A stretch of DNA of 35,454 nucleotides from Fibrobacter sp. Its GTDB lineage: Bacteria; Fibrobacterota; Fibrobacteria; Fibrobacterales; Fibrobacteraceae. Below the pieces are notes generated by a model. It saw only the letters and a program-made list of their open reading frames with translations, did no database searches and had not been told where the DNA came from. Position 1 is the stretch's first letter; the number at the start of each line of letters is the position of its first letter. Positions 9,870 to 35,014 of the stretch are shown in pieces. The position numbers and the translations under genes were made by a program. The stretch spans positions 1-35,454 of the forward strand of contig JAKSIF010000027.1 in NCBI GenBank assembly GCA_024398965.1, given 5' to 3'.

Positions 9870-9888
9870 GACTGCCTTTTTCTGAAAT

Positions 9889-9998
9889 GCGTTAGGGGCC
9901 GTAACCCCTTAGGGCCGAGACAGTTCCCTGGCTCGGTGAGCGGGACCAATGTAATGGGCTCGCGAATAGGACCCGACCCGGCTTTTGCCGGGGAACGC
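9889..9998 (+). repeat. R element, copy R1 (110 bp structured repeat)
   Basis: This copy lies between recF and the mscL terminator, in opposite orientation to the three island copies. GCGTT at the left end pairs with AACGC at the right end. Internal stems are AGGGG/CCCCT (loop TTACGG), CCGAG/CTCGG, GTGAGC/GCTCGC and CCCGGC/GCCGGG. It shares the blocks GCGTTAGGG, CCCCTTRGGGCC, RCCCGACCC and GGGGAACGCCC with the copies at 21884, 27869 and 34852. The variable segments between blocks form different but still complementary stems. Confidence 0.75.
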
Positions 9999-10004
9999 CC
10001 TTAA

Positions 10005-10036
10005 AACAAAAAATCCGCGGCTTTGTGGGCCACGGA
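10005..10036 (-). terminator. Terminator of mscL
   Basis: On the minus strand TCCGTGG pairs with CCGCGGA (one G-T wobble) around CCCACAAAG. It is followed by a T-rich run, seen as A-rich 10005-10013 on the plus strand. Confidence 0.8.
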
Positions 10037-16384: not shown

Positions 16385-17299
16385 TTATTCCTTGCCGATT
16401 TTTATCTGGGCGAGGATGACTGCGGTGAACATCAAAATGCAGCCGATGCCTTCTTGAAGGGAAAAATGTTCGTTGAGAATAGCCCAACCGCCAAGGACGG
16501 CGAATACAGATTCAAGGCTCATCAGTAGCGATGCTATGGTGGGCCTTATCTTGTTTTGTGCAACAATCTGCAGGGTGAATGCGACTCCGCTAGAGAGTAT
16601 GGCTGCGTACAGCAGTGGAATCCATGCGCCGGCGTGGGAGTAAATCTTCACTGCATTAACGAGTCCTGCGGAGGAACATTCCATGTCTACCAGTACCATA
16701 GGGATGGCGCTCATGACGCAGGCAACAAGACATTGGATTGCGGAAAGTCGAACGTTGTCTACCTCGGTGCCGTATTTGTCGATAATCAGAATTTGAATGG
16801 CGAAAGAAAGTGCGCAAAGAAGCAGAACGCCGTCGGAAGCCTGAACAGAAAATCCTTCCTTGATACAAAGCAGGTAGAGGCCGACCAGGGTGAGCCCTAC
16901 GCAAAACCAGATCTTGGCAGAAATTTTTTTGCCAAGAAAAACGCTCAAGACGGGAACCAGGATAATGTAGCAGGTGGTAAGAAATCCGGACTTTCCGGCG
17001 GAAGACCCCAGGAACAGCCCCAGCTGTTGAAAATTCGTTCCAAAGGCGAGGGCGATGCCGCAAAGAATTCCTGCCTTCCATAGTTTGCGGTTTTCTGCGG
17101 GATTTTTCGGCTTACGGGGGCTTTTCCCCGCAACATCCAAAATTTTAGCCAGTCCGAACAAAAGGAAGGTGGCTATGAAGTTACGAACGCAGGTGAAAAC
17201 GAAAGGGCCTGCGCTATTGCCTTCCGCCTGGGCTACAAAGGTGGTTCCCCATATGAAGGCTGCTAAAATGAGCAAAAAGCTGTATCCGAGGTTTGCCAT
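16385..17299 (-). CDS. DMT-superfamily (EamA) transporter
   Basis: The 304-aa protein has ten hydrophobic segments in two EamA repeats. Typical stretches are AAFIWGTTFVAQAEG near the N-terminus and RPTIASLLMSLESVFAVLGGWAILNEHFS in the second half. It begins with the common DMT pattern 'FIWG(T/S)xF'. Substrate is unknown. It converges on the NhaC gene with a 12-nt gap; a weak hairpin (AAAATCG/CGATTTTT, 16375-16402) spans the junction. It is unrelated at the sequence level to the DMT exporter at 10605 beyond the family fold. Confidence 0.78.
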   Translation of the reverse strand: MANLGYSFLLILAAFIWGTTFVAQAEGNSAGPFVFTCVRNFIATFLLFGLAKILDVAGKSPRKPKNPAENRKLWKAGILCGIALAFGTNFQQLGLFLGSSAGKSGFLTTCYIILVPVLSVFLGKKISAKIWFCVGLTLVGLYLLCIKEGFSVQASDGVLLLCALSFAIQILIIDKYGTEVDNVRLSAIQCLVACVMSAIPMVLVDMECSSAGLVNAVKIYSHAGAWIPLLYAAILSSGVAFTLQIVAQNKIRPTIASLLMSLESVFAVLGGWAILNEHFSLQEGIGCILMFTAVILAQIKIGKE

Positions 17300-20397: not shown

Positions 20398-20609
20398 CTT
20401 TTAAGAACCTAAGATTGATTTAGACTAGCGAACGACCTTACGATCATCAGCAGTCATATCCAAGAAGGCCTGAACAGTCATGCTGCCCTTATCGCCTTCC
20501 TTACGCTTGTTGACGGAAACCTTGCCTTCGGCCATTTCCTTTTCGCCAACGATGATCTTGTACGGAACCTTCTGGAGTTCGCACTGACGGAACTTGTAGC
20601 CCAGCTTTT

Positions 20610-20690
20610 GACGCCTGCGGCGTCCGCGGCTGCACCTCGGTCATAAAATTATGCGAGCATAATTTTGCGACACTCGGTTTGCACGCTTTT
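20610..20690. repeat. P element P1 (81 bp) in thrS fragment A
   Basis: Hairpin 1 is GACGCC-TGC-GGCGTC and hairpin 2 is AAAATTATGC-GA-GCATAATTTT. GCTTTT occurs on both sides (20604-20609 and 20685-20690) but only once in uninterrupted fragment C, so it may be a 6-bp target duplication. The length is a multiple of three. Confidence 0.7.
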
Positions 20691-20770
20691 CGTTGGATTC
20701 GTCGATGTCGCAGCGGACGCCGGCGTTCACCAGTTCGCGTTCCACCTTGTGGGCGTATTCAGCGAACTTT

Positions 20771-20850
20771 GGACGCCGATGGCGTCCGCACTACGGCTCA
20801 CCAATAAAAATACGCAAGCGTATTTTTGCAGGATTCGCCTTGTATGCTAT
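20771..20850. repeat. P element P2 (80 bp) in thrS fragment A
   Basis: Hairpin 1 is GGACGCC-GAT-GGCGTCC and hairpin 2 is AAAATACGC-AA-GCGTATTTT. Linker CTACGGCTCA lies between them and ATTCGCCTTG follows. Defined by comparison with uninterrupted fragment C around 33970. Confidence 0.7.
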
Positions 20851-21280
20851 TCAGAAATGGGGAGGACGCGTGCCTGGACCGGAGCGAGCCACAGCGGGAA
20901 ATCGCCCATGAATTCTTCGATGAGGATGCCCAGGAAGCGTTCGATGGAACCCACGGCTGCACGGTGCAGCATAACGGGGATGTGCTTCTGGTTGTCCTTA
21001 CCCACATATTCTGCACCGAGGCGCTGCGGGAGGTTGAAGTCCACCTGGATGGTACCGCACTGCCAATCACGGCCGAGGGAATCCTTCAGGGTGAATTCAA
21101 GCTTCGGGCCGTAGAAGGCGCCTTCGCCCGGGTTCAAGATGTAGTCGAGGCCAGCAAGCTTGGTGGCTTCTTCGAGAGCGGCTTCAGCCTTGTCCCAAAG
21201 TTCGTCAGAACCCACGCGGCGTTCCGGACGGGTGGAGAACTTCACCACGATGGAATCGAAACCGAAGTCGTGGTAGATTT

Positions 21281-21359
21281 GACGCCTTCGGCGTCCGTGG
21301 CTACGCTCGGTCATGCCAGTCTGCAAGCAGCCTGTCGCGACACTCGCTTGCACACTTTT
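21281..21359. repeat. P element P3 (79 bp) in thrS fragment A
   Basis: Hairpin 1 is GACGCC-TTC-GGCGTC. Linker CTACGCTCGGTCATG and tail ACTCGCTTGC match the family. The second hairpin is degenerate around TCTGC-AA-GCAGC. The insertion shifts the thrS frame and brings a stop at 21301. Confidence 0.65.
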
Positions 21360-21677
21360 CCTTCACGAGAGCGCAGAAGTCTGCCACTTCGGAAGCGATC
21401 TGTTCTTCGGTACAGAAGATATGAGCGTCATCCTGCACGAAGCCGCGGACGCGCATCAAACCGTGCATGGTACCGGCAGGTTCGTAACGGTGGCACTTAC
21501 CGAATTCAGCAAGACGCATCGGGAGATCACGCCAGCTGCGGAGGCCGGTGTTGAAGATCTGAATGTGGCAGGGGCAGTTCATGGGCTTCACAGCCATTTC
21601 AACGTCGCCAGCCATGGTCTTGAACATGTTTTCGTTGTACTTGTCGGCGTGGCCGGACTTGATCCACAAAGTCTTGT

Positions 21678-21753
21678 GGCGACTTCGTCGCCTCCCGCAT
21701 CGGCTCGGCTATGGGCAAACGCGTTTGCCCGCAGCACTCGCCTTGGGCGGTAG
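21678..21753. repeat. P element P4 (76 bp) in thrS fragment A
   Basis: Hairpin 1 is GGCGAC-TTC-GTCGCC and hairpin 2 is GGGCAAAC-GC-GTTTGCCC. Linker CGGCTCGGCTAT and tail ACTCGCCTTG match the family. It is absent from fragment C at the equivalent site near 34721. Confidence 0.7.
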
Positions 21754-21760
21754 TCACGAT

Positions 21761-21835
21761 TGGGATGCAAGCATCCCAGCTCTTCGGCTCGGCAATGGAC
21801 AAACGAGTTTGTCCGCTGCTCTCGCCTTGCATCGC
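21761..21835. repeat. P element P5A at the 5' boundary of thrS fragment A
   Basis: Hairpin 1 is GGGATGC-AA-GCATCCC and hairpin 2 is GGACAAAC-GA-GTTTGTCC, with linker CTTCGGCTCGGCAAT. The orthologous element beside fragment C (34729) keeps hairpin 1 but has a different hairpin 2. About 48 conserved nt join it to the R element. Confidence 0.7.
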
Positions 21836-21883
21836 TGTCCGGAGTAATGACTTCAAGGTAGCCACGAAATCTGCTTATTATGG

Positions 21884-22018
21884 GCGTTCCCCGCACTATC
21901 GTGTGGGTCGGGCTATATTGCAAGGCCACCCGTGCGCACCTGCGGCACGCCCGCGCGGCTCTTGCAACCAAGCCTCGCTCCGCGAGTCTTGTCCCCAAGG
22001 GGTCACTATCCCTAACGC
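21884..22018 (-). repeat. R element, copy R2 (135 bp)
   Basis: GCGTT/AACGC ends are paired. Internal stems include CCCCGCAC/GTGTGGG, TTGCAAG/CTTGCAA, a long GC-rich inner arm, CTCGC/GCGAG and AGGGG/TCCCT. It follows P5A after 48 conserved nt. On the minus strand it precedes thrS fragment A. Its outer end is about 30 nt from the truncated lipoprotein frame at 22052. Confidence 0.7.
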
Positions 22019-22051
22019 AAAACATCTTCATGCTTAAATTGATTCTTTTGA

Positions 22052-22840
22052 AGAAATTATAATTACCAGGTATTCGTCTTGAAGGTGATGGACCTCTGCT
22101 ATGTCGAGGCGGATCTCCTGACAAAACGTTTAGGCGACACCTTGGAAATCGAATATGGCCCCGACCGTGTGGAATCAACATGCACGTGCTATAGCGACCA
22201 CTGGTTCGATATTGCCCCCGAAAACAAGGACATCAGGTATTTCAAGTTCAGCGGAAAAATCTACGAAATTGACCCCGGCCCCGCTCCAGGACCTTCGAAA
22301 AAAGTAAAAAAAGCAGACGAAGGCCCTGAACTGACAGATGCCCGAGACGGACAAGTTTACAAGACGATTCAACTCGGCGAACAGACCTGGACGGCCGAAA
22401 ATCTCAACTTTGAAATTGAAGATGGTGTCCAAAGTTGGTGCAACGGAAACAAAGGCGAAAACTGCGATAAGTACGGTCGTCTATACACACTCGCCGCCGC
22501 AAAGACAGCCTGCCCACCCGATTGGCACTTGCCTTCAGTTGATGAGTGGCCCACAAAGGGGAATGGTGGCTACTCGGCGTTTTACGCTTATGGCGTTGAG
22601 GGTTGGGGAAATGCAAAAGACGAATACGGGTTCGCAATTTTGCCCGCAGGGAACTATCAAGCAGAATTCCAAAATTATCTTGAGCCGGGCCTTTTAGCAT
22701 TCTTTTGGACATCCACAATAGACAAACTCAATCATAATTGTCCTAAAATGATTCATGTTGGCGACGGTTCCGAAGGAATGGTAAGCGTCTGTAGCGACAA
22801 CGAAAACGACGGATTATCAGTCCGCTGCGTAAAGGACTAG
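22052..22840 (+). pseudogene. 5'-truncated FISUMP-domain protein (Fibrobacter major paralogous domain)
   Basis: The frame opens right after a stop at 22049 and has no signal peptide. Its first usable start is TTG at 22079, giving about 253 aa. The C-terminal 170 residues are the Fibrobacter succinogenes major paralogous domain: DARDGQVYKTIQLGEQTWTAENLNF, CDKYGRLYTLAAAKTACPPDWHLPS, FAILPAGNY, FFWTST and LSVRCVKD. In this family such domains sit on secreted lipoproteins, so the missing signal sequence suggests the 5' end was cut off at the R2 junction. A cytoplasmic product from TTG is possible but less likely. Confidence 0.6.
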
Positions 22841-24076: not shown

Positions 24077-24931
24077 ATGAATAAGAGCCTAATTTACCTG
24101 ATAGCCGTTTCTCTGTGGCTTCTGGCCTGTAGCGATTCGTCGTCGGAACCGCAAAAAGAAGAATATGATATAAGCGGATGCTGCTCCGGGGAATGGACTA
24201 TCGAAAGAATCATTTCGATCAATAGTCTTGGAGATACCATAAACATACGAAATGGAGATTCCACATATACAAATAAGGGCGTGTGCAATCCACCGCCTCC
24301 GAGTGTAATGACTTTCATGTGTGCGGAAACTCCGTTTAGATTTGTTGATTCTGTCGTTATAGATTCAAGCATTTCATCTTCTAGCGAACAACTTTCTTCA
24401 TCTTCGCTTCATAATTCCGATTCTATCCAAACACTGGAAGCATTTCTCGAAGAATACGACATAACAGACTATTCCTTTGATAAAAATGTTCTCGCTTACA
24501 ACGAGACTTCCGGCTACTGCGATGCGTTGCAGAACACCTGCTTCGAAGCACCGGGCATAAGCGAGTTCAGAACATTAGGGCTGCACAGGTTCGAGGCAAA
24601 CGACATCACTGCATTGACGACAATTTTTCCGCACGCTGCGGCAGCGATGAACAATAAAATCGAGGGGTGCCCGCTTTATGTGCTGAATATCAGCGACACT
24701 TCGCCCGCAATCCACATTCTCACCAACATCACGAAAGACACCGTCACCATCGTAAATATCAGCGACGAGTGCGCCTATGTGCCGAGACCCTTCGACATGA
24801 ATGTCGGATTCTTGTTCACCTATTGCGACGAACTTTCCGAAAATCCCGAAGTCGTCACCACACAAGTGTTTGACGACAAAATGGAATGCGGAACAATTGA
24901 ATACGCGGAATGCATAAGCGAAAGACTCTAA
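24077..24931 (+). CDS. Lipoprotein with short Ser linker, unknown function
   Basis: The 284-aa protein has a lipobox (LWLLACSDSSSE, Cys about residue 18), a serine stretch (SSISSSSEQLSSSSLHNSDS, about residues 96-115) typical of Fibrobacter surface proteins, and a C-terminal domain with spaced Cys (CDALQNTC, CAYVPR, CDELS, MECGTIEYAEC). No family is recognised. The start at 24077 follows GAGGA-type sequence (AAGAGGATTTGAGAAATG). It probably shares transcription with the preceding lipoprotein gene. Confidence 0.6.
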   Translation: MNKSLIYLIAVSLWLLACSDSSSEPQKEEYDISGCCSGEWTIERIISINSLGDTINIRNGDSTYTNKGVCNPPPPSVMTFMCAETPFRFVDSVVIDSSISSSSEQLSSSSLHNSDSIQTLEAFLEEYDITDYSFDKNVLAYNETSGYCDALQNTCFEAPGISEFRTLGLHRFEANDITALTTIFPHAAAAMNNKIEGCPLYVLNISDTSPAIHILTNITKDTVTIVNISDECAYVPRPFDMNVGFLFTYCDELSENPEVVTTQVFDDKMECGTIEYAECISERL

Positions 24932-25198: not shown

Positions 25199-26617
25199 TT
25201 AGTCCTTCAGACACCGAACAGACCTGGCTGAGTCCATAGCCCCTCTATCGGCGTTATCCGAAAAAGAGTTGGTCAAGTTGGAACGATCGTCTGCCCATCC
25301 CAAACGCAGGAAATCGGCTACGCAGCTGCCCTTACTGGTAGTCCAAAAGTAGGCGTTATCGCCGACGCCGTAGAATTCATGGACTGTGTAAGTAATATTC
25401 CTATTAGCATAGGTACCAGCAGGCAAAGCTGAGAAACCTTTGGAATCAGAGCCATTGCCAACATATTGACTATTACTCTTCCAACCACTGGTTGATTTAA
25501 GATTAGCCCCTGCAACACTATAACCGCCAACATAACTAATTAGAGTTAGAAACTCTGATGCACTAGGCACGTGCCAGCCAACCGGACATACTCCACGGAC
25601 GATTCCACGTGGGGAGCTAGAAGCATGACAGCCACAACCCTTGCCTGCAGTAGAAAATACAGCCGCCGAATCTACGGTCGCAGACCACGTATAAAGTCGA
25701 CCATACTTGGAACAGGAATCCGCATAGCAGTAACTACGGGCCGTTCTATTGTTGTAATCGTAATTCAAATTTTCAGCCATCCAAGTCTGCGAACCGATCT
25801 CCACGGTCTTGTACACTTGGCCATCGCGGTCATCAATAATTTCGCCATAAGAAATTGCAGGATTCAAGTATTGCCATACGAGTTTTTCGATACTACTACT
25901 GGACTCTACAGAACTGGAGGATACCGCACTGCTGGAACTTTTTGCAGAAGACGAGCTAGCGACACTGGATGAACTAGCTGCACTGCTACTACTTTTGACA
26001 GAGGAACTGCTCACAAATGACGAAGAAGACGTTGCAGAACTGGAGGATACCGCACTGCTGGAACTTTTTGCAGAAGACGAGCTAGCGACACTGGATGAAC
26101 TAGCTGCACTGCTACTACTTTTGACAGAGGAACTGCTCACAAATGACGAAGAAGACGTTGCAGAACTGGAGGATACCGCACTGCTGGAACTTTTTGCAGA
26201 AGACGAGCTAGCGACACTGGATGAACTAGCTGCACTGCTACTACTTTTGACAGAGGAACTGCTCACAAATGACGAAGAAGACGTTGCAGAACTGGAGGAT
26301 ACCGCACTGCTGGAACTTTTTGCAGAAGACGAGCTCAAGAACAGAGTCGCCCCACCAATAATTTCTTCCTCAGCAGAAGCCTCCTTTGCAGAAATCTTTG
26401 TCCACTCGCCATCTAAACAGCGGCGAAAATCCTTACCAATTGCTTCAGCTACCCAGCCATCCAACTTTTCGTCACAAACTTTTTCTCCACTACCGTCAGC
26501 TAATGCAATAACATCTTTAGTTCCTTTTTCCACAGAATTAGAACCGCTATCGTCACCACAAGCTATAAAAAAAAGAGATGACACTAAAGCCATTGACGAA
26601 AGTATTTTTATAAACAT
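25199..26617 (-). CDS. FISUMP-domain surface lipoprotein with long poly-Ser repeat linker
   Basis: From ATG 26617 (AAAGGAG 6 nt upstream) the product has 472 aa. It has a lipobox (FFIACGDD), then a short globular region resembling a Cys-bracketed fold (KVCDEKLDGWV...RRCLDGEWTKI). A linker of about 140 residues follows, built of XXSSSS hexapeptides, and then the Fibrobacter major paralogous domain (DRDGQVYKTVEIGSQTWMAENLNYDY, CSKYGRLYTWSA, VCPVGWHVPS, FSALPAG, ARSVRCLKD). It should be exposed at the cell surface. The stop codon lies within the target duplication of the MITE at 25038. A longer upstream frame to 26695 lacks a signal peptide and is not used. Confidence 0.78.
   Translation of the reverse strand: MFIKILSSMALVSSLFFIACGDDSGSNSVEKGTKDVIALADGSGEKVCDEKLDGWVAEAIGKDFRRCLDGEWTKISAKEASAEEEIIGGATLFLSSSSAKSSSSAVSSSSATSSSSFVSSSSVKSSSSAASSSSVASSSSAKSSSSAVSSSSATSSSSFVSSSSVKSSSSAASSSSVASSSSAKSSSSAVSSSSATSSSSFVSSSSVKSSSSAASSSSVASSSSAKSSSSAVSSSSVESSSSIEKLVWQYLNPAISYGEIIDDRDGQVYKTVEIGSQTWMAENLNYDYNNRTARSYCYADSCSKYGRLYTWSATVDSAAVFSTAGKGCGCHASSSPRGIVRGVCPVGWHVPSASEFLTLISYVGGYSVAGANLKSTSGWKSNSQYVGNGSDSKGFSALPAGTYANRNITYTVHEFYGVGDNAYFWTTSKGSCVADFLRLGWADDRSNLTNSFSDNADRGAMDSARSVRCLKD
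25910..26335 (-). repeat. 126-bp tandem repeat encoding the Ser linker
   Basis: ATACCGC recurs at 25921, 26047, 26173 and 26299, an exact 126-bp period. Each unit encodes seven XXSSSS hexapeptides (AK, AV, AT, FV, VK, AA, VA variants). Units look identical in sequence, so the array of about 3.4 units is recent and can change length in frame. Confidence 0.85.
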
Positions 26618-26684
26618 TGTTGACTCCTTTAGTGGCTCACTTTTTCCAACAGAAAAATTTGTATTCCTAGTTGATTTTTCAGGC

Positions 26685-27110
26685 CTAGGCGACATTGTCT
26701 AGATGAACCCTTTCGAAATATACATCCGAAGGCGTGTTCCAGTCAAGGGATGAATGCAATCTTTCGTCGTTATAGCGTACAAAGTATTCCTTCAAGCCTT
26801 GCCTGCACTCGGTTACCGTTTCATAGCCCCTGATGTAGATGTCCTCCTGTTTCAACGTTCTCCAGAAGCGTTCAACGAATATGTTGTCGTAGGCCCTACC
26901 CTTGCCGTCCATGGAGAGCCTTGTCGGGCATCCCTCCCAAGTGAATATGCCGGTGAACTGTTCTGACGTGTACTGGCAGCCCTGATCCGTATTGAACACT
27001 TCCGGCCAGCCGTACGTGTTGATCGCTTCGCGCACGGCCTCCTCGCAAAATTCCGTTGACAGCGTGGTCGAAAGCCGCTTGTCGCATTCTGTAGAAAGAA
27101 GGCTCGTCAT
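26685..27110 (-). pseudogene. IS3 orfB (integrase core), C-terminal half
   Basis: RLSTTLSTEFCEEAVREAINTYGWPEVFNTDQGCQYTS carries the second catalytic Asp. DGKGRAYDNIFVERFWRTLKQEDIY carries the catalytic Glu, and RYNDERLHSSLDWNTPSDVYF is the usual IS3 C-terminus. The first catalytic Asp and the N-terminal half are lost. Confidence 0.8.
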
Positions 27111-27553: not shown

Positions 27554-27672
27554 CTAGCGCACGACTTTTCTATCGTCTTCGGTCATAGCGAGGAACTGAG
27601 CGACAGTCATAGCGCCTTTGTCGCCGTCCTTGCGCTTACGCACGGACACAACGCCATCGGCAACTTCCTTTT
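27554..27672 (-). pseudogene. thrS fragment B: last 39 codons only
   Basis: The minus strand reads KEVADGVVSVRKRKDGDKGAMTVAQFLAMTEDDRKVVR-stop, homologous to the C-terminus of fragments A and C. It is clearly more diverged from them than they are from each other. Two P elements and an R element replace everything upstream. An open frame reaches 27817 by reading through the P elements, but it is not ThrRS. Confidence 0.7.
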
Positions 27673-27768
27673 GGACCCCTTCGGAGTCCCAGCCGTAGCG
27701 GCTCGGCACAAACATCAAAGCGAGTAAAGCAGAAAAGCTTGCTTTTCTATTTTCGAGCGACATGTTTG
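27673..27768. repeat. P element P-B2 at the break of thrS fragment B
   Basis: Hairpin 1 is GGACCCC-TTC-GGAGTCC (one mismatch) and hairpin 2 is AGAAAAGC-TT-GCTTTTCT. An extra outer pair CAAACAT/ATGTTTG makes this copy longer than the others. The CGGCTCGG linker is kept. Confidence 0.6.
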
Positions 27769-27829: not shown

Positions 27830-27868
27830 TAATCACTTCCAGTTAACCGCGAAATCTGCTTATTATGG

Positions 27869-28002
27869 GCGTTCCCGCACATTCTGTGCGGTCGGGCTAT
27901 ATTGCAAGGCCACCCGTGCGCACCTGCGGCACGCCCGCGCGGCTCTTGCAACCAAGCCTCGCTCCGCGAGTCTTGTCCCCAAGGGGTCACTATCCCTAAC
28001 GC
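27869..28002 (-). repeat. R element, copy R3 (134 bp)
   Basis: It is nearly identical to R2, but the first hairpin is CCGCAC-ATTCT-GTGCGG instead of CCCCGCAC/GTGTGGG, keeping complementarity. It ends 36 nt before the DUF3800 promoter. Confidence 0.7.
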
Positions 28003-28037
28003 GAATGCAAAATAGTGCTTTTTTGTTCATTTTCTTA

Positions 28038-28066: not shown

Positions 28067-28106
28067 ATTAAGGAGCTGGTCGAAAGACCCAGGTTCAACC
28101 TAACTA

Positions 28107-28131
28107 GGCGGGCAAACTGTCCGCCATTTTT
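28107..28131 (+). terminator. Attenuator-like hairpin in the DUF3800 leader
   Basis: GGCGGGCA and TGTCCGCC form an 8-bp stem with loop AAC, followed by ATTTTTG. It lies between the promoter and the start codon. A GGTC-GAAA-GACC tetraloop hairpin (28078-28089) precedes it. The short transcript could be a separate RNA of about 60 nt. Confidence 0.6.
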
Positions 28132-28145
28132 GTTTGGAGAATTTG

Positions 28146-28826
28146 ATGAGTTGCCTAAGTATTTTTGTGGATGAGAGTGGGGATTTCGGCCCTTACGATT
28201 CAAAATCCCCATATTACATTGTGACACTCGTCATCCATGACCAATCAAAAGATATAAGCAACCATGTTCAAACTTTGAACGCCAAGGTCCAGTCGCTTGG
28301 ATTCGGCAACGATTTTGTCATTCACACAGCACCACTTATTCGCAGGGAAGAAATCTTCGTCAACGAGCCTCCAAACAAAAGAAGGTCTCTTTTTATAAGC
28401 CTGTTTTTCTTCGTCATGAAATCTCCGATTTCCTACAAGACTTTCGTCTTCGAAAAGCGACAAGGCGAAACTACTTTGGCTTTAGAAGGTCGTATGGCCC
28501 GCGAAATGTCTCTGTTCATCCGACAAAACCTAGCCTTCTTTCAAAAATTTGAGGATGTTGTCCTTTATTATGACAACGGCCAACACGAGTTGAACAGGAT
28601 TTTGAATTACATCCTTTCAACGGAACTATCCTCTTATACACTCCGAAAAGTGCTTCCCAAGGATTATAAGTTATTCCAAGTTGCCGACTTGATTTGTACC
28701 TTACAGCTTCTCAGCCTAAAATGCGAAAGTGGAGAACTTTCTAAATCAGAGCAACTTATATTCCACAGTAAGCGAGAACTAAGAAAGACTTTTTTAGGCC
28801 CAATACAAAAGAAACGATTTAATTAG
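28146..28826 (+). CDS. DUF3800 protein
   Basis: The 226-aa product shows DUF3800 hallmarks: IFVDESGDFG near the N-terminus, VVLYYDNGQ in the middle and FQVADLICTLQLL near the C-terminus. Their acidic residues are thought to form an RNase H-like active site; biochemical function is not established. ATG at 28146 has GGAG 6 nt upstream, which decides against the TTG at 28134. DUF3800 genes are frequent in mobile and defence loci. Here it converges on the PLD/helicase operon with only 9 nt between stops. The leader arrangement (promoter, hairpin RNA, terminator, gene) resembles that of type III toxin-antitoxin loci, although the protein is not ToxN-like. Confidence 0.75.
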   Translation: MSCLSIFVDESGDFGPYDSKSPYYIVTLVIHDQSKDISNHVQTLNAKVQSLGFGNDFVIHTAPLIRREEIFVNEPPNKRRSLFISLFFFVMKSPISYKTFVFEKRQGETTLALEGRMAREMSLFIRQNLAFFQKFEDVVLYYDNGQHELNRILNYILSTELSSYTLRKVLPKDYKLFQVADLICTLQLLSLKCESGELSKSEQLIFHSKRELRKTFLGPIQKKRFN

Positions 28827-28835
28827 CAATTTTCA

Positions 28836-30161
28836 TTATTGAAATTTCGCTATCTGTTTCTTTATTTCCGCTTCGTTTTTGATGATTGAAGATGTTTCTC
28901 CTCGTGCGTTCGGTTCGTTTCCACCACCAAAACTGAGCCAGTTGAAACTTCCCATTATCATAAACTCACTGTCGCAAATGACGATTTTGGAATGATCGTC
29001 CCGTTTAATAAAACGGAATAAATTTTTATCTAGCGAATTGAAAAACCTTTCTGATTCCTCATCAATCCCTATTTTGTCAAAACGATTTCGAGGCTTCATT
29101 CCATATTTTATGGTTACTTTCACACCTCTATTTATGGCGTTTTCTATATAATCCTTATATAGTTGCAATGTCCGCCAATTAATCCAAGGCGATTGGATGT
29201 AAATACTTTGCTTTGCATTTTCAAGAATGTAGATGAAATATTTCTTGTGTTCATCAACTTCAATTGTCTTACCTTCGGTAATATCAATTTTTTCAACAGG
29301 CTTTACCTTTTCTTCGACAATCTCCGAAGTCGTTCGTTCGAACGAGTCTTTATTTTCGTTTAGAAGTTCTCTACAGTTGGTCGATACATTGTCATTAAAT
29401 TTTTGTTCATTAGACAGTCGATCAAAAAGCTCGGTAGCCTCAGAATCCACTTCATAATTTTTGTCTATAGCCAACAGTTTTTCGTTATCTTCGCGATCTT
29501 TGTAAAAAAGGCAAAAATACTTGTTGAAGTATTTGTTGGGATCGACTTGCTGAATGTCGATTATATCATATTCTTCATTTTGCAGATTTTCGATCAATAC
29601 CTGCCGCAACGTTTTGTTGTCTGCAAACTCTTCGTCTAAAGATTCTATTCTAGGACGGATTTTCACATATGGCTTAAATTCAATCGCCCCTTCGCGAGCT
29701 TTCTTATCATCTGCATTAAATTTCCCGTCATCAGGAAGTGGAGTTCCATAGATTCCGTCAAAATTTATATAGCTACACATCAATTCTGTAACTATTTCTT
29801 TCTCGTTTTCGAGTATCTCAAGTCCGTTCTTTGAAAGCTGGAGAGAATCGCCCTGCTTCAGATATCCCTTTGTCGTAATATCAGCCAAGATATTGTCTAG
29901 TATTTTATCATCCAATTGTGTAATTTGTTTCAACTGTTGATAAACGTCCGGGCTGTCAAGCGATTCCAGGTACTTTATCATTTTAAGGACGGAAAGAATA
30001 ACAGGATGCAGTTTCTGTTCTTTTGCAACAGTGTAGGTCACCTTCGTCCTATACACAGGATAATCAAATTCACGAGCGTCATACCTCATAAATTGAGGAT
30101 AATAATCGCTAAATTTGTGAACGAGCAACTGCAAATCAGGCTTTATCGATTTATTAGGCAT
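28836..30161 (-). CDS. PLD-family nuclease (Mokosh MkoB-like)
   Basis: From ATG 30161 (GGGAG 6 nt upstream) the protein has 441 aa. The N-terminal half includes a winged-helix-like segment (SDSPDVYQQLKQI-type helices, ILADITTKGYLKQGDSLQLSKNGLEILEN). The C-terminal part is a single phospholipase D domain: SIYIQSPWINW, then the HxK motif HSKIVICDSEFMIMGSFNW (about residues 386-405). One HKD per chain implies a homodimeric active site, as in PLD nucleases. Its start overlaps the end of the kinase-helicase gene by 8 nt, so the two are coupled and probably act together. This pairing matches the architecture of type I Mokosh defence systems. Confidence 0.75.
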   Translation of the reverse strand: MPNKSIKPDLQLLVHKFSDYYPQFMRYDAREFDYPVYRTKVTYTVAKEQKLHPVILSVLKMIKYLESLDSPDVYQQLKQITQLDDKILDNILADITTKGYLKQGDSLQLSKNGLEILENEKEIVTELMCSYINFDGIYGTPLPDDGKFNADDKKAREGAIEFKPYVKIRPRIESLDEEFADNKTLRQVLIENLQNEEYDIIDIQQVDPNKYFNKYFCLFYKDREDNEKLLAIDKNYEVDSEATELFDRLSNEQKFNDNVSTNCRELLNENKDSFERTTSEIVEEKVKPVEKIDITEGKTIEVDEHKKYFIYILENAKQSIYIQSPWINWRTLQLYKDYIENAINRGVKVTIKYGMKPRNRFDKIGIDEESERFFNSLDKNLFRFIKRDDHSKIVICDSEFMIMGSFNWLSFGGGNEPNARGETSSIIKNEAEIKKQIAKFQ

Positions 30162-33100
30162 TCTGTGCTCCCATCTTGACAATTTCATACTCATTGCGAT
30201 TGTTGTTTATGCATTCGATAATCCTTACGAAAGGATTGTCTTGATCAGAACATTTCGCCCTATACAAGAAATTCATATCTCCCACAATAATAAGAAGTTT
30301 CTTCGCTCGCGAAAGAGAAACGTTTAGGCGCTTTTCGTCGGCAATAAAGTCAATTTTCGCCTTACCATTGCGTTGTGCGGCACGGACACAATCATAAACG
30401 ATGATATCCCTGTCACTTCCCTGAAAACTATCGACCGTTCCAATATCAACAATATAGGATCGGAAATTTTTTCTCGGCTGAAGTCGAGAATCTAGCAGTT
30501 CCTTTTGCGCTTTATAAGGAGTAATTATTCCAACATCGTATTTTAGCTTCTTGTCATCCATTTCGCGTTTTATGCGATTTAGCACATTGGCAATACATTT
30601 TGTGTTGCAATAATTGATTTTTCCTGTTCCTTTCTGCTTATCTTGTTTATCTGGCAACATGCCTGTGTCATACCAAACAACGCTAGACTTGAAACTAAGC
30701 TGATGTTTTTTGATTTTGTTGACTTTGTCCAAAGTCTTCAAGGCTCCTTCATAGAAAGCGTTGCTATATAGGTCGCAAATACGCCTTTCTGCACGATAAT
30801 TGTATGTTAGCGTATGCAATAGATTTTCTCGGTCAACGCTTTGGATTCTTTCAAACAGCCTTTGGAAAAATGATGTTTTCGCCTCGTTCTTATCTTCAAT
30901 TTTTTCTATTACTTCATCATCGATTATAGGAGCAAGCTGTTTGTGGTCGCCCACAAGTATTAACCTTCTCGCTTTAATACATGGAACAAGCAATTCACTA
31001 AGAGTTGCTCGCCCCGCCTCATCGACAATGACCATATCAAAAGTCATGTCTCTAAAATTCTTCCATGAAGAAATCCCAAGAAGAGTTCCAAAAATAAGCC
31101 TGATATTATTTGTAAAAAGTGAAGCAAGTTGGGCGTCTTTATTTTCTTTTCTTGCAATGTTGAAGCTCATTTTAGAGGTAATATGTTGCAATTGCTCTTT
31201 AAAATCCTTTTGAAGGGTTTGCAATTCGTTCTGAATATTCCCGTTTGAATGGCGAATCGTATTTTTATTAATACGCTCAATATTGTCCCTTAACAATTTG
31301 TTCAATACCTTTTCGGGCGTGTAATTTCGAGCCACTTCGCTCATTTTCTTTTCGTCATTTCCAATACGGAGTATCTTGTTCTCAATACCGCAAACCTTTT
31401 CAAGAACATTGTCAACGGCCTGGTTGCTTTGGGAGGCAATCAAGATTTTTGCATTTGATCGATTTTTTAAAACTTGGGTCACGATTTCCGTTATTGTAGT
31501 CGTTTTTCCTGTGCCAGGAGGTCCCTGTATAATTAGGGCTTCGCAATCATCGTTTAATGACAGACTTTTCCGCACAGCCAGTTTTTGGTTGTCATCTAAA
31601 TCTTTGTTATAGAATGTCTCAACATCAACTAATTCGTTTTTAATGAATTCTTGAGGGCGGTTTACCTTCCTGAGGAAATTTGGAATGGCGGTATTTCCGT
31701 TCTGCAACATTTCAAGGGCCTTTTCTCGTTTTCCCCATATAATTTCTTCTACCTCGTAATCATAACTTAGATAGTATTCATTGCCCTTTTTTAAGCCTAG
31801 CGTTTGGTTTTTAGAATCTTCCGATTTAAGGATTGAATATTTTTCAAACTTTATCGTTACGGAATCCCCCGATGACGTGCTCTGAACAACACCTTTTAGT
31901 GATTCTCCGTCACGGGTATTTTCTTTCACAATCACAGCTTGTGATTGCTTAAAATCTCTTTTAGGAAAAACTGGATTTTCGTTGCCTTCTTCTACAAAAA
32001 CAAATGTTGCGGTATCGTTGCCTTTGTCAAGGCTTTTTAGAACCATCTTTTGTGTATTTTTTTTCTCATCTATAGTATTCTTTTCCGCTTTCAGAAGTTC
32101 TTCCTCAGAGACTATGCATTTTTTATCTATTTCATATTGAAGGTTTATTCGTTGTCTTTGTTCATATTTATCTTTTAGCGTTTCAATCACTTCGCCAGCG
32201 CTATCGCATTCAAAATATCGTGAATTTTGAGTTCCTATTTTAAATTTGTCATTCGTCGGCAATCCATATTTCTGCATTCGTTCCGTAATACTTGGTAACT
32301 CTAGAATCTTAAAGCAAAAGAAAAACCTTTGATCATTTTTTGCAGAGCAACAGAAAGTTATATCCCCAACAGAAATTTTTATTTCTTCTCGTTCAGATTT
32401 GTCTTTGCCAAATTCTAGATACGCACGGTGACCTTCAATTCTTTTTTGGATATCTTCGGTTACGGCGTATATGTCATAAACATCTTCATGACTTTCGAGC
32501 CATTGCTGGCAAATCTTATCCATCACCTGGATTGCAAATTTTTTACTAGGCTCAATCTGGTTTAGCAGGTTTTCTAGATTGTGACATGTGTCGGCAACAG
32601 AAATCCTTTCGTCGGGATTTTTCAGAAGCATCTTCTTAATTAACAAGAATATGTCCGCATTGATTTTGTTCAAATAACGGTTGTTTTCAACGACATATTC
32701 AAAAATATGCTCTAGTGAGGAATAATCTTCATACTCTTTCGCAAAAGAAAATGAATCAAACTGCGATTCTAACAACATTTTGAGCATGCACAATCCAAGT
32801 GAAAATACATCACTGGCTTGGAAGCACTCATTTTGTTCTATTTGTTCAGGAGAATAAAATTTATTGTCTCTTTGAAATTTTAATGCGGCATAAATATAGC
32901 AGCGTCCAAAATCAAGCAGATAGGCGTTGTCGTTTCTATCAACAATAATGTTATGCGGGTTGATGTTTCCATGATACATTCCATTCTTATGTATGAAAGC
33001 GACTGCATTTACAATTTGTATGTAACATTTTATGAGCGAAGCGTAATTACTTCCGAACCATTGGGCTTTCAAATCCGAATATCCTTCGCCAAAATTCTTA

Positions 33101-33321
33101 TCTACAAAATAAAAGTTTCTAGAATCTTCTTCTATCTTGAGATTGCTGATATTTTTATGAGAAACAGAATTAATTTGCTTGGCAATATCCGAATATTTCC
33201 CACAAGAAGGAGTCTTCGCAACGATTTCTATGCGATACTCGTTTCCATTGTATATGCCATATTTAAGGATATCGTTATCCTCTTTGATAATTTGATATTT
33301 GCCTAAGATTCTTGAACTCAT
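30154..33321 (-). CDS. Kinase-like/SF1 helicase fusion (Mokosh MkoA-like)
   Basis: The 1055-aa protein starts with a protein-kinase fold (about residues 8-250): IVAKT lysine, YHGNINPHNIIV catalytic loop (about 116-127), LLDFGR (about 137), YSPEQ and SDVFSLG. The HRD motif reads HGN, so the catalytic Asp is Asn. Residues about 250-560 are a linker with lysine-rich helices. A COG1112/Upf1-like SF1 helicase follows: Walker A QGPPGTGKTTTI (about 597-608), VIVDEAGRA (about 763), LVGDHKQLAP, YNYRAERRI, GTVDSFQGSDRDI (about 962) and RLNVSLSRAKKLLIIVGD (about 1001). Kinase plus helicase plus a separate PLD nuclease is the type I Mokosh anti-phage architecture. It is AT-rich compared with core genes. 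The start codon has only a weak GGG upstream. Confidence 0.8.
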   Translation of the reverse strand: MSSRILGKYQIIKEDNDILKYGIYNGNEYRIEIVAKTPSCGKYSDIAKQINSVSHKNISNLKIEEDSRNFYFVDKNFGEGYSDLKAQWFGSNYASLIKCYIQIVNAVAFIHKNGMYHGNINPHNIIVDRNDNAYLLDFGRCYIYAALKFQRDNKFYSPEQIEQNECFQASDVFSLGLCMLKMLLESQFDSFSFAKEYEDYSSLEHIFEYVVENNRYLNKINADIFLLIKKMLLKNPDERISVADTCHNLENLLNQIEPSKKFAIQVMDKICQQWLESHEDVYDIYAVTEDIQKRIEGHRAYLEFGKDKSEREEIKISVGDITFCCSAKNDQRFFFCFKILELPSITERMQKYGLPTNDKFKIGTQNSRYFECDSAGEVIETLKDKYEQRQRINLQYEIDKKCIVSEEELLKAEKNTIDEKKNTQKMVLKSLDKGNDTATFVFVEEGNENPVFPKRDFKQSQAVIVKENTRDGESLKGVVQSTSSGDSVTIKFEKYSILKSEDSKNQTLGLKKGNEYYLSYDYEVEEIIWGKREKALEMLQNGNTAIPNFLRKVNRPQEFIKNELVDVETFYNKDLDDNQKLAVRKSLSLNDDCEALIIQGPPGTGKTTTITEIVTQVLKNRSNAKILIASQSNQAVDNVLEKVCGIENKILRIGNDEKKMSEVARNYTPEKVLNKLLRDNIERINKNTIRHSNGNIQNELQTLQKDFKEQLQHITSKMSFNIARKENKDAQLASLFTNNIRLIFGTLLGISSWKNFRDMTFDMVIVDEAGRATLSELLVPCIKARRLILVGDHKQLAPIIDDEVIEKIEDKNEAKTSFFQRLFERIQSVDRENLLHTLTYNYRAERRICDLYSNAFYEGALKTLDKVNKIKKHQLSFKSSVVWYDTGMLPDKQDKQKGTGKINYCNTKCIANVLNRIKREMDDKKLKYDVGIITPYKAQKELLDSRLQPRKNFRSYIVDIGTVDSFQGSDRDIIVYDCVRAAQRNGKAKIDFIADEKRLNVSLSRAKKLLIIVGDMNFLYRAKCSDQDNPFVRIIECINNNRNEYEIVKMGAQNA

Positions 33322-33350
33322 TTTTTACCCATTATGATTCATCATTTTTA

Positions 33351-33380
33351 AATATACCTTATTCAATTGAAAACGAACAA
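33351..33380 (-). promoter_or_regulatory. Candidate promoter of the helicase-PLD operon
   Basis: On the minus strand TTGTTC and TATATT are 18 nt apart. The -10 ends about 30 nt before the ATG at 33321. Confidence 0.45.
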
Positions 33381-33708: not shown

Positions 33709-34728
33709 TTAGCGAACGACCTGGCGATCAGCTTCGGTCATAGCGAGGAATTCCTGAACAGTCATAGCGCCCTTATCGCCTTCCTTACGCTTGTTTACGG
33801 AAACCTTGCCTTCGGCCATTTCCTTTTCGCCAACGATGATCTTGTACGGAACCTTCTGGAGTTCGCACTGACGGAACTTGTAGCCAAGCTTTTCGTTGGA
33901 TTCGTCGATGTCGCAGCGGACGCCGGCGTTCACCAGTTCGCGTTCCACCTTGTGGGCGTATTCAGCGAACTTTTCAGAAATGGGGAGGACGCGTGCCTGG
34001 ACCGGAGCCAACCACAGCGGGAAATCGCCCATGAATTCTTCGATAAGGATGCCGAGGAAACGTTCGATGGAACCCACGGCTGCACGGTGCAGCATAACGG
34101 GGATGTGCTTCTGGTTGTCCTTACCGACATATTCTGCACCGAGGCGCTGGGGCAGGTTGAAGTCCACCTGGATGGTACCGCACTGCCAATCACGGCCGAG
34201 GGAATCCTTCAGGGTGAATTCAAGCTTCGGGCCGTAGAAGGCGCCTTCGCCCGGGTTCAAGATGTAGTCGAGGCCAGCAAGCTTGGTGGCTTCTTCGAGA
34301 GCGGCTTCAGCCTTGTCCCAAAGTTCGTCAGAACCCACGCGGCGTTCCGGACGGGTGGAGAACTTCACCACGATGGAATCGAAACCGAAGTCGTGGTAGA
34401 TTTCCTTCACGAGAGCGCAGAAGTCTGCCACTTCGGAAGCGATCTGTTCTTCGGTACAGAAGATATGAGCGTCATCCTGCACGAAGCCGCGGACGCGCAT
34501 CAAACCGTGCATGGTACCGGCAGGTTCGTAACGGTGGCACTTACCGAATTCAGCAAGACGCATCGGGAGATCACGCCAGCTGCGGAGGCCGGTGTTGAAG
34601 ATCTGAATGTGGCAGGGGCAGTTCATGGGCTTCACAGCCATTTCAACGTCGCCAGCCATGGTCTTGAACATGTTTTCGTTGTACTTGTCGGCGTGACCGG
34701 ACTTGATCCACAAAGTCTTGTTCACGAT
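33709..34728 (-). pseudogene. thrS fragment C: 5'-truncated threonyl-tRNA synthetase, uninterrupted C-terminal half
   Basis: About 340 codons align with ThrRS from roughly residue 315 of the E. coli enzyme to the end. Motif 2 ([17 protein letters not shown]), motif 3 ([23 protein letters not shown]) and zinc ligands (Cys of KPMNCPCH, His of DDAHIF, His of MLHRAAVGS) are intact. The anticodon-binding domain ends GDKGAMTVQEFLAMTEADRQVVR. TGS and editing domains and motif 1 are missing; P5C and R4 lie where they should be. An open frame continues through P5C to an ATG at 34800 (363 aa). Dimerisation and activity are unlikely without motif 1, so I call it a pseudogene, although translation is possible. 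Confidence 0.75.
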
Positions 34729-34803
34729 TGGGATGCAAGCATCCCAGCTCTTCGGCTCGGCAATGCCCACGCAAGCGTGGTCACAGCTCTCGCCTTGCAT
34801 CGC
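34729..34803. repeat. P element P5C at the 5' boundary of thrS fragment C
   Basis: Hairpin 1 GGGATGC-AA-GCATCCC is the same as in P5A. Hairpin 2 is CCACGC-AA-GCGTGG, replacing the GGACAAAC/GTTTGTCC stem of P5A while flanks are unchanged. The thrS-sense frame reads through it. Confidence 0.7.
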
Positions 34804-34851
34804 TGTCCGGAGTAATCACTTCCAGGTAGCCACGAAATCTGCTTATTATGG

Positions 34852-34984
34852 GCGTTCCCCGCACTATCGTGTGGGTCGGGCTATATTCTGGGGGTAATCG
34901 GCTGCGCTTACGCTTGCCACTCACCTCCCAGAACCAAGCCTCGCTTCGCGAGTCTTGGCCCCAAGGGGTCACTATCCCTAACGC
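34852..34984 (-). repeat. R element, copy R4 (133 bp)
   Basis: It shares both ends with R2 and R3. The central arm is completely different: TTCTGGG/CCCAGAA enclosing GGC/GCC and GCG/CGC, in place of TTGCAAG/CTTGCAA. The stem CCAAG/CTTGG replaces ACAAG/CTTG. It ends 18 nt before the -10 of the rod-shaped RNA. Confidence 0.7.
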
Positions 34985-35014
34985 AAATGCGAATAGTTTT
35001 GTTATATTAGAGAC

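Follow-up and report, generated by a model that had tools for sequence, protein, structure and literature searches.

Comparison at the sequence level suggests that a two-gene operon of this Fibrobacter sp. is a type I Mokosh anti-phage operon, horizontally acquired and carried as one cassette of a thrS-linked island, a reading to which we assign a probability of about 0.86. The window, the whole stretch of 35,454 nt that was analyzed, is the complete contig C27 of a 3.59-Mb draft genome (G000). Both ORFs of the pair reported in a preliminary description were found there, running in the same direction on the minus strand: mkoA at 30154–33321 (1055 aa) and mkoB at 28836–30161 (441 aa). The reported 8-nt overlap, ATGCCTAA, was obtained with the mkoB start at ATG 30161, 7 nt downstream of a ribosome-binding-like GGGAG; taken from 30194, as the longest ORF, mkoB overlaps mkoA by 41 nt and encodes 452 aa. 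The region is AT-rich, as had been stated, with a GC content of 35–40% across 28–33 kb vs. ~50–55% over most of the contig's left part. Minus-strand copies of a structured element of ~145 nt, here called E, bound the cassette of the operon, and each is then followed by a 3′ fragment of thrS. The operon does sit between thrS fragments B (27557–27673, −; residues 631–669) and C (33709–34728, −; residues 331–669), both located by tblastn with the intact thrS.

The search with defense-family HMMs that had been suggested was carried out with PADLOC, which assigned the pair to MkoA and MkoB, with other defense families far below, and supports the type I Mokosh label. MkoA matched PDLC03920 (2.4e-198, 660 bits) over aa 4–1044 and profile positions 6–1103 of 1112 (99%); this better-matching model is the shorter MkoA model (1112 vs. 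1607 positions). MkoB matched PDLC03922 (2.1e-60, 203.6 bits), the best match spanning only profile positions 4–363 of 610. A chance match is excluded by these scores. Pfam domains agreed with the description of both genes, with Pkinase (aa 50–247) and AAA_11/AAA_12 SF1 helicase (aa 575–1016) domains in mkoA and one PLDc_2 domain, that of a single-HKD PLD nuclease, in mkoB. The operon resembles Mokosh type I in having a kinase-like domain fused to an SF1 COG1112-type helicase, then an overlapping PLD nuclease gene, and in the HMM match over the whole of MkoA. It differs in the replacement of the kinase Asp and loop Lys, in the lack of a NERD domain in the Pfam scan of the operon proteins, and in its identity of 22–36% to the relatives found. 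The kinase catalytic residues are not known as a requirement for type I membership, and NERD was not taken as defining. The source that lists NERD for Mokosh type I does not state it to be required in every type I system (PMC10952713). Mokosh type II consists of one fused protein, MkoC, which the helicase and PLD parts match partially (9.8e-39 and 5.9e-22). Type II was ruled out because two separate genes with a kinase-like domain are present here, which makes the operon type I.

The kinase-like domain is degenerate. The expected catalytic loop of a kinase is HRDxKPxN, and alignment with relatives placed HGNINPHN at this position in mkoA (aa 117–124; 32950–32973, −). The Ser/Thr-kinase domain of the preliminary description is therefore present as a Pkinase match, but the catalytic Asp and the catalytic-loop Lys are missing from it. 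The Asp was kept by every relative that aligned at the loop (HNDIKP, HRDIKP, HRDVKP, HRDLKP, HRDIN, HGDLS, and HGDIT), and the Lys varied among them (HRDIN, HGDLS, and HGDIT). A DFG motif was present and a glycine-rich loop was absent. Because both loop residues are replaced while the aligned relatives keep the Asp, the kinase is probably inactive, and the domain would be a binding or regulatory pseudokinase, not an active enzyme. Structure prediction, also suggested earlier, gave low-confidence models of both proteins (mean pLDDT of 64 and 62), and the AlphaFold model was too weak for judging the kinase fold. Since its kinase-like domain is probably a pseudokinase, this naturally occurring type I operon offers a direct test of the need for kinase activity.

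The best Foldseek matches of the low-confidence mkoA model were Upf1/IGHMBP2. MkoB combines a winged-helix-like N-terminus with the nuclease domain, whose HKD motif, HSKIVICD (28971–28994, −), is conserved in three aligned relatives. Its model, likewise of low confidence, resembled TrmBL2 in the winged-helix part and NucT, Nuc, and Zucchini in the nuclease part. Mokosh has been viewed as degrading viral transcripts, and domain homology to the piRNA pathway has been described (PMC11291487). From this view and the protein families, we infer a mechanism in which the Upf1-like SF1 helicase of MkoA would engage and remodel nucleic acid of phage origin, either RNA or a replication intermediate, and the associated MkoB PLD nuclease would cut it.

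Relatives with the same two-gene order were found in several phyla, on an Aliarcobacter plasmid, on Nostoc and Anabaena plasmids, in Pseudactinotalea, Streptomyces, Saprospiraceae, and Flavonifractor, and on viral contigs. The best match was the Aliarcobacter plasmid relative (36% identity), which is adjoined by SIR2, DUF87, and DEAD/DEAH-helicase genes; CBASS-like genes adjoin the Nostoc copy, and the Flavonifractor partner protein does not keep the HKD motif. Among 100 sampled Fibrobacteraceae genomes, no full-length orthologue was found. Since these genomes gave only partial matches, the best of them to the helicase part at 32–36% identity, the operon was most likely acquired horizontally, and it extends Mokosh to Fibrobacter. 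Two of the partial matches were examined, in G029 (L216, G029:C7, 7397–10834) and G005 (L218, G005:C108, 4096–7389), and both are MkoA-class helicases. A kinase domain was not detected in either, their neighbors gave no match to MkoB or PLD models, and the neighbor of the L218 helicase is a zinc-ribbon; these loci possibly represent a different helicase pair.

The changes in the kinase loop could also mark a Mokosh copy in decay that has lost its defense function, in which the kinase has already degenerated and the rest is to follow. The loss of Asp and Lys and of a glycine-rich loop fits such decay, as does the state of the adjoining thrS fragment A (20428–21832, −; tblastn with intact thrS), which is decayed with a broken frame. 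We nevertheless consider it unlikely, given that both ORFs are full length, that the overlap and ribosome-binding-like site are retained, and that the checked helicase motifs (Walker A GPPGTGKT, VDEAG, and GDHKQL) and HKD motif are intact. Moreover, some relatives vary at the loop Lys, and therefore the kinase may be relaxed more widely. No orthologue close enough to test the kinase region for selection was found (best 36%, plasmid). A housekeeping pair of Upf1-like RNA-surveillance helicase and nuclease, serving no defense, would suit the closest solved structures of the helicase, which are IGHMBP2, UPF1, and SEN1. It is very improbable for a pair that is sporadic, with no full-length form in the 100 sampled relatives, that lies in an AT-rich island, and whose homologues occur on plasmids, on viral contigs, and beside other defense genes.

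The type I Mokosh operon might be thought to include a third functional part. A DUF3800 gene (28134–28826, +; longest ORF, start uncertain; Pfam DUF3800, 1.8e-9) is convergent with mkoB across a 9-nt gap and shares its cassette, and a DUF3800-XI RNA (28072–28122, +; Rfam RF02975, 49.5 bits, E-value 3.2e-8) lies directly upstream of this gene. We find little reason to believe that these belong to the Mokosh system, as E is also accompanied by both gene and RNA at the V-ATPase hotspot of G026 and by the RNA at the nifJ hotspot of G012. The MkoA/MkoB profiles reported no mkoAB pair in the G012 locus, and no Mokosh was among the matches listed for the scanned cassette ORFs of the G026 locus. Because they adjoin E at other hotspots where no Mokosh pair was reported, DUF3800 and its RNA look like an independent module of E cassettes. 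The DUF3800-XI RNA adjoins E, and is divergent from it, at three hotspots, namely thrS, the V-ATPase operon, and nifJ (window 28072–28826; L250 11659–12408; L211 10710–10760), with the DUF3800 gene confirmed at two.

The operon is ordinary in kind, and the cassette system is the part that deserves dedicated study. The island context described earlier held in that thrS pieces flank the operon; it was refined in that these fragments are not incidental but part of a genus-wide cassette architecture. The intact thrS of the genome is on contig C11. Within the window, E copies lie beside thrS fragments C (34843–34988, −; strong fold, z −5.0, with covariation), B (27860–28006, −), and A (21875–22022, −), and a diverged copy lies at 9888–10005 (+). 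In a related genome, G057, five E copies, one of them truncated in the sequence search, come after the intact thrS, and beyond them, at the edge of the stretch examined, lies DNA coding for a 47-residue piece with 98% identity to window gene 16385–17299. Window cassette genes 22079–22840 and 24077–24931 have 98–99% identical counterparts in the G057 array. Several array-free genomes carry a convergent gene ~100 nt after thrS, and the same gene abuts E in G059. On the basis of the G057 array and this thrS neighbor, the array is placed at the thrS locus, downstream of the gene, and the right end of C27 is predicted to join C11. A PIN-domain (VapC-like) gene was observed just downstream of thrS in G000, and the same gene follows a thrS fragment in G057, with a short upstream ORF that is a possible antitoxin (loci L214 7042–7422 and L202 2342–3033).

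Element E behaves as a structured sequence. Across 27 copies, a standard pair was formed in 97.0% of base-pair cells vs. ≤54% with the partners slid, although this comparison favors the structure, which came from the alignment itself, over the slid versions. Changes on both sides were found in 18 of 39 pairs of the 27-copy alignment, the shuffle control ignoring relatedness. An attC site would have complementary RYYYAAC/GTTRRRY boxes; the ends of E carry GTTAGGG and GGGGAAC, which by inspection are not complementary. A known RNA was rejected as its identity, as Rfam gave no match even at E ≤ 10. E was found in seven of the 41 sampled genera of the phylum, all in Fibrobacteraceae.

At the junctions, E is followed by up to 20 unmatched nt and then, at many, by 28–43 nt belonging to the target gene. 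A second repeat, R (~75 nt), frequently comes next, after which the target gene resumes with little or no loss. Beside fragment C, 30 nt identical to the intact thrS (34806–34835, −) separate E from R, which is REP-like, hairpin-forming by inspection, and located inside the thrS fragment (34730–34805, −). The same placement near the 5′ start of the fragment, with the gene contiguous across R, was seen in L242, L245, L248, L266, and L268. Some thrS tails that lack E carry R as well, just behind the thrS terminator. At many junctions R is 34–56 nt from E; a fixed-length guide after E is not claimed, because some junctions are without R and some R-bearing fragments are without E.

Intact and truncated thrS copies are ~100% identical near the junction, and in G000 identity falls to 74–79% in the last stretch. 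One G057 thrS fragment drops to 74%, another stays at 94–100%, and in G097 identity declines, more noisily, to 72%. The topology would suit a circle integrated by single crossover, but divergence rises mainly towards the 3′ end in G000 and G057 and less sharply in G097. Because the copies match near the junction and diverge at the 3′ end, a plain crossover with a diverged donor is disfavored. Gene conversion could mask a single crossover, and the simplest account has integration by such a crossover followed by gene conversion; a dedicated E-based process is the most interesting one. Neither explains all of the junction data.

A target gene was identified within 1.2 kb after E for 39 of 62 distinct copies: thrS (13), nifJ (9), carB (7), the V-type ATP-synthase operon (7), and valS (3), this list being taken from the same loci as the 62 copies. 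The 39 junctions are not independent events, because copies at one site share ancestry, and in several V-ATPase and carB cases the target match begins 600–1100 nt from E. An intact target copy is often upstream of the E-linked fragments. Where the region reached far enough upstream, E was followed by a copy of DNA from ≤9 kb upstream in 8 of 19 cases vs. 9 of 116 random sites (Fisher p 4e-4), with an upward bias from five of the 20 regions having been chosen partly for known thrS copies; without the four testable ones the count is 5 of 15.

The arrays resemble integron arrays in that the cassettes follow one another in a single orientation and each closes with a structured repeat tolerant of sequence change, and in their cargo of toxin-antitoxin, restriction-modification, and small variable genes. 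Unlike in integrons, the IntI integrase (TIGR02249) was not over the cut-off in the genome of the window or in the other sampled Fibrobacteraceae, the cassettes are set apart by 3′ fragments of housekeeping genes, and E is multi-branched and by inspection has no matching attC core boxes; E is therefore probably not an integron attC. Islands that insert into the 3′ end of a conserved gene and regenerate it also have an intact gene upstream and a truncated 3′ copy at the far boundary. Here, in contrast, fragment starts vary within and between thrS, nifJ, carB, valS, and the V-ATPase operon, the structured E stands at the boundary, and no recombinase recurs in the examined cassettes. ORF clustering, used to look for a recombinase common to the cassettes, yielded chiefly target genes, Fib_succ_major-like proteins, and small families.

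We tentatively propose, as a possibility somewhat short of even odds, that the operon is carried by a so far undescribed kind of Fibrobacteraceae cassette, with E as its end and the 3′ end of an essential gene as its anchor, that gene being kept intact and a truncated copy left. In such a class E, tens of nt of the target and often R would help to choose or make the insertion site, with no integron integrase. A gene-capture route of the E type was found neither in Rfam nor in a limited search of the open-access literature. If it holds up, Fibrobacter would capture genes by a route outside Rfam, with the structure-conserved E standing family-wide at the ends of defense, toxin-antitoxin, and surface-protein cassettes behind essential genes. 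Fib_succ_major proteins, toxin-antitoxin modules, and restriction-modification genes are among what E cassettes carry. In the window, the serine-rich part of a Fib_succ_major gene (25199–26695) contains tandem 126-nt repeats, with three copies 98% identical (25902–26335).
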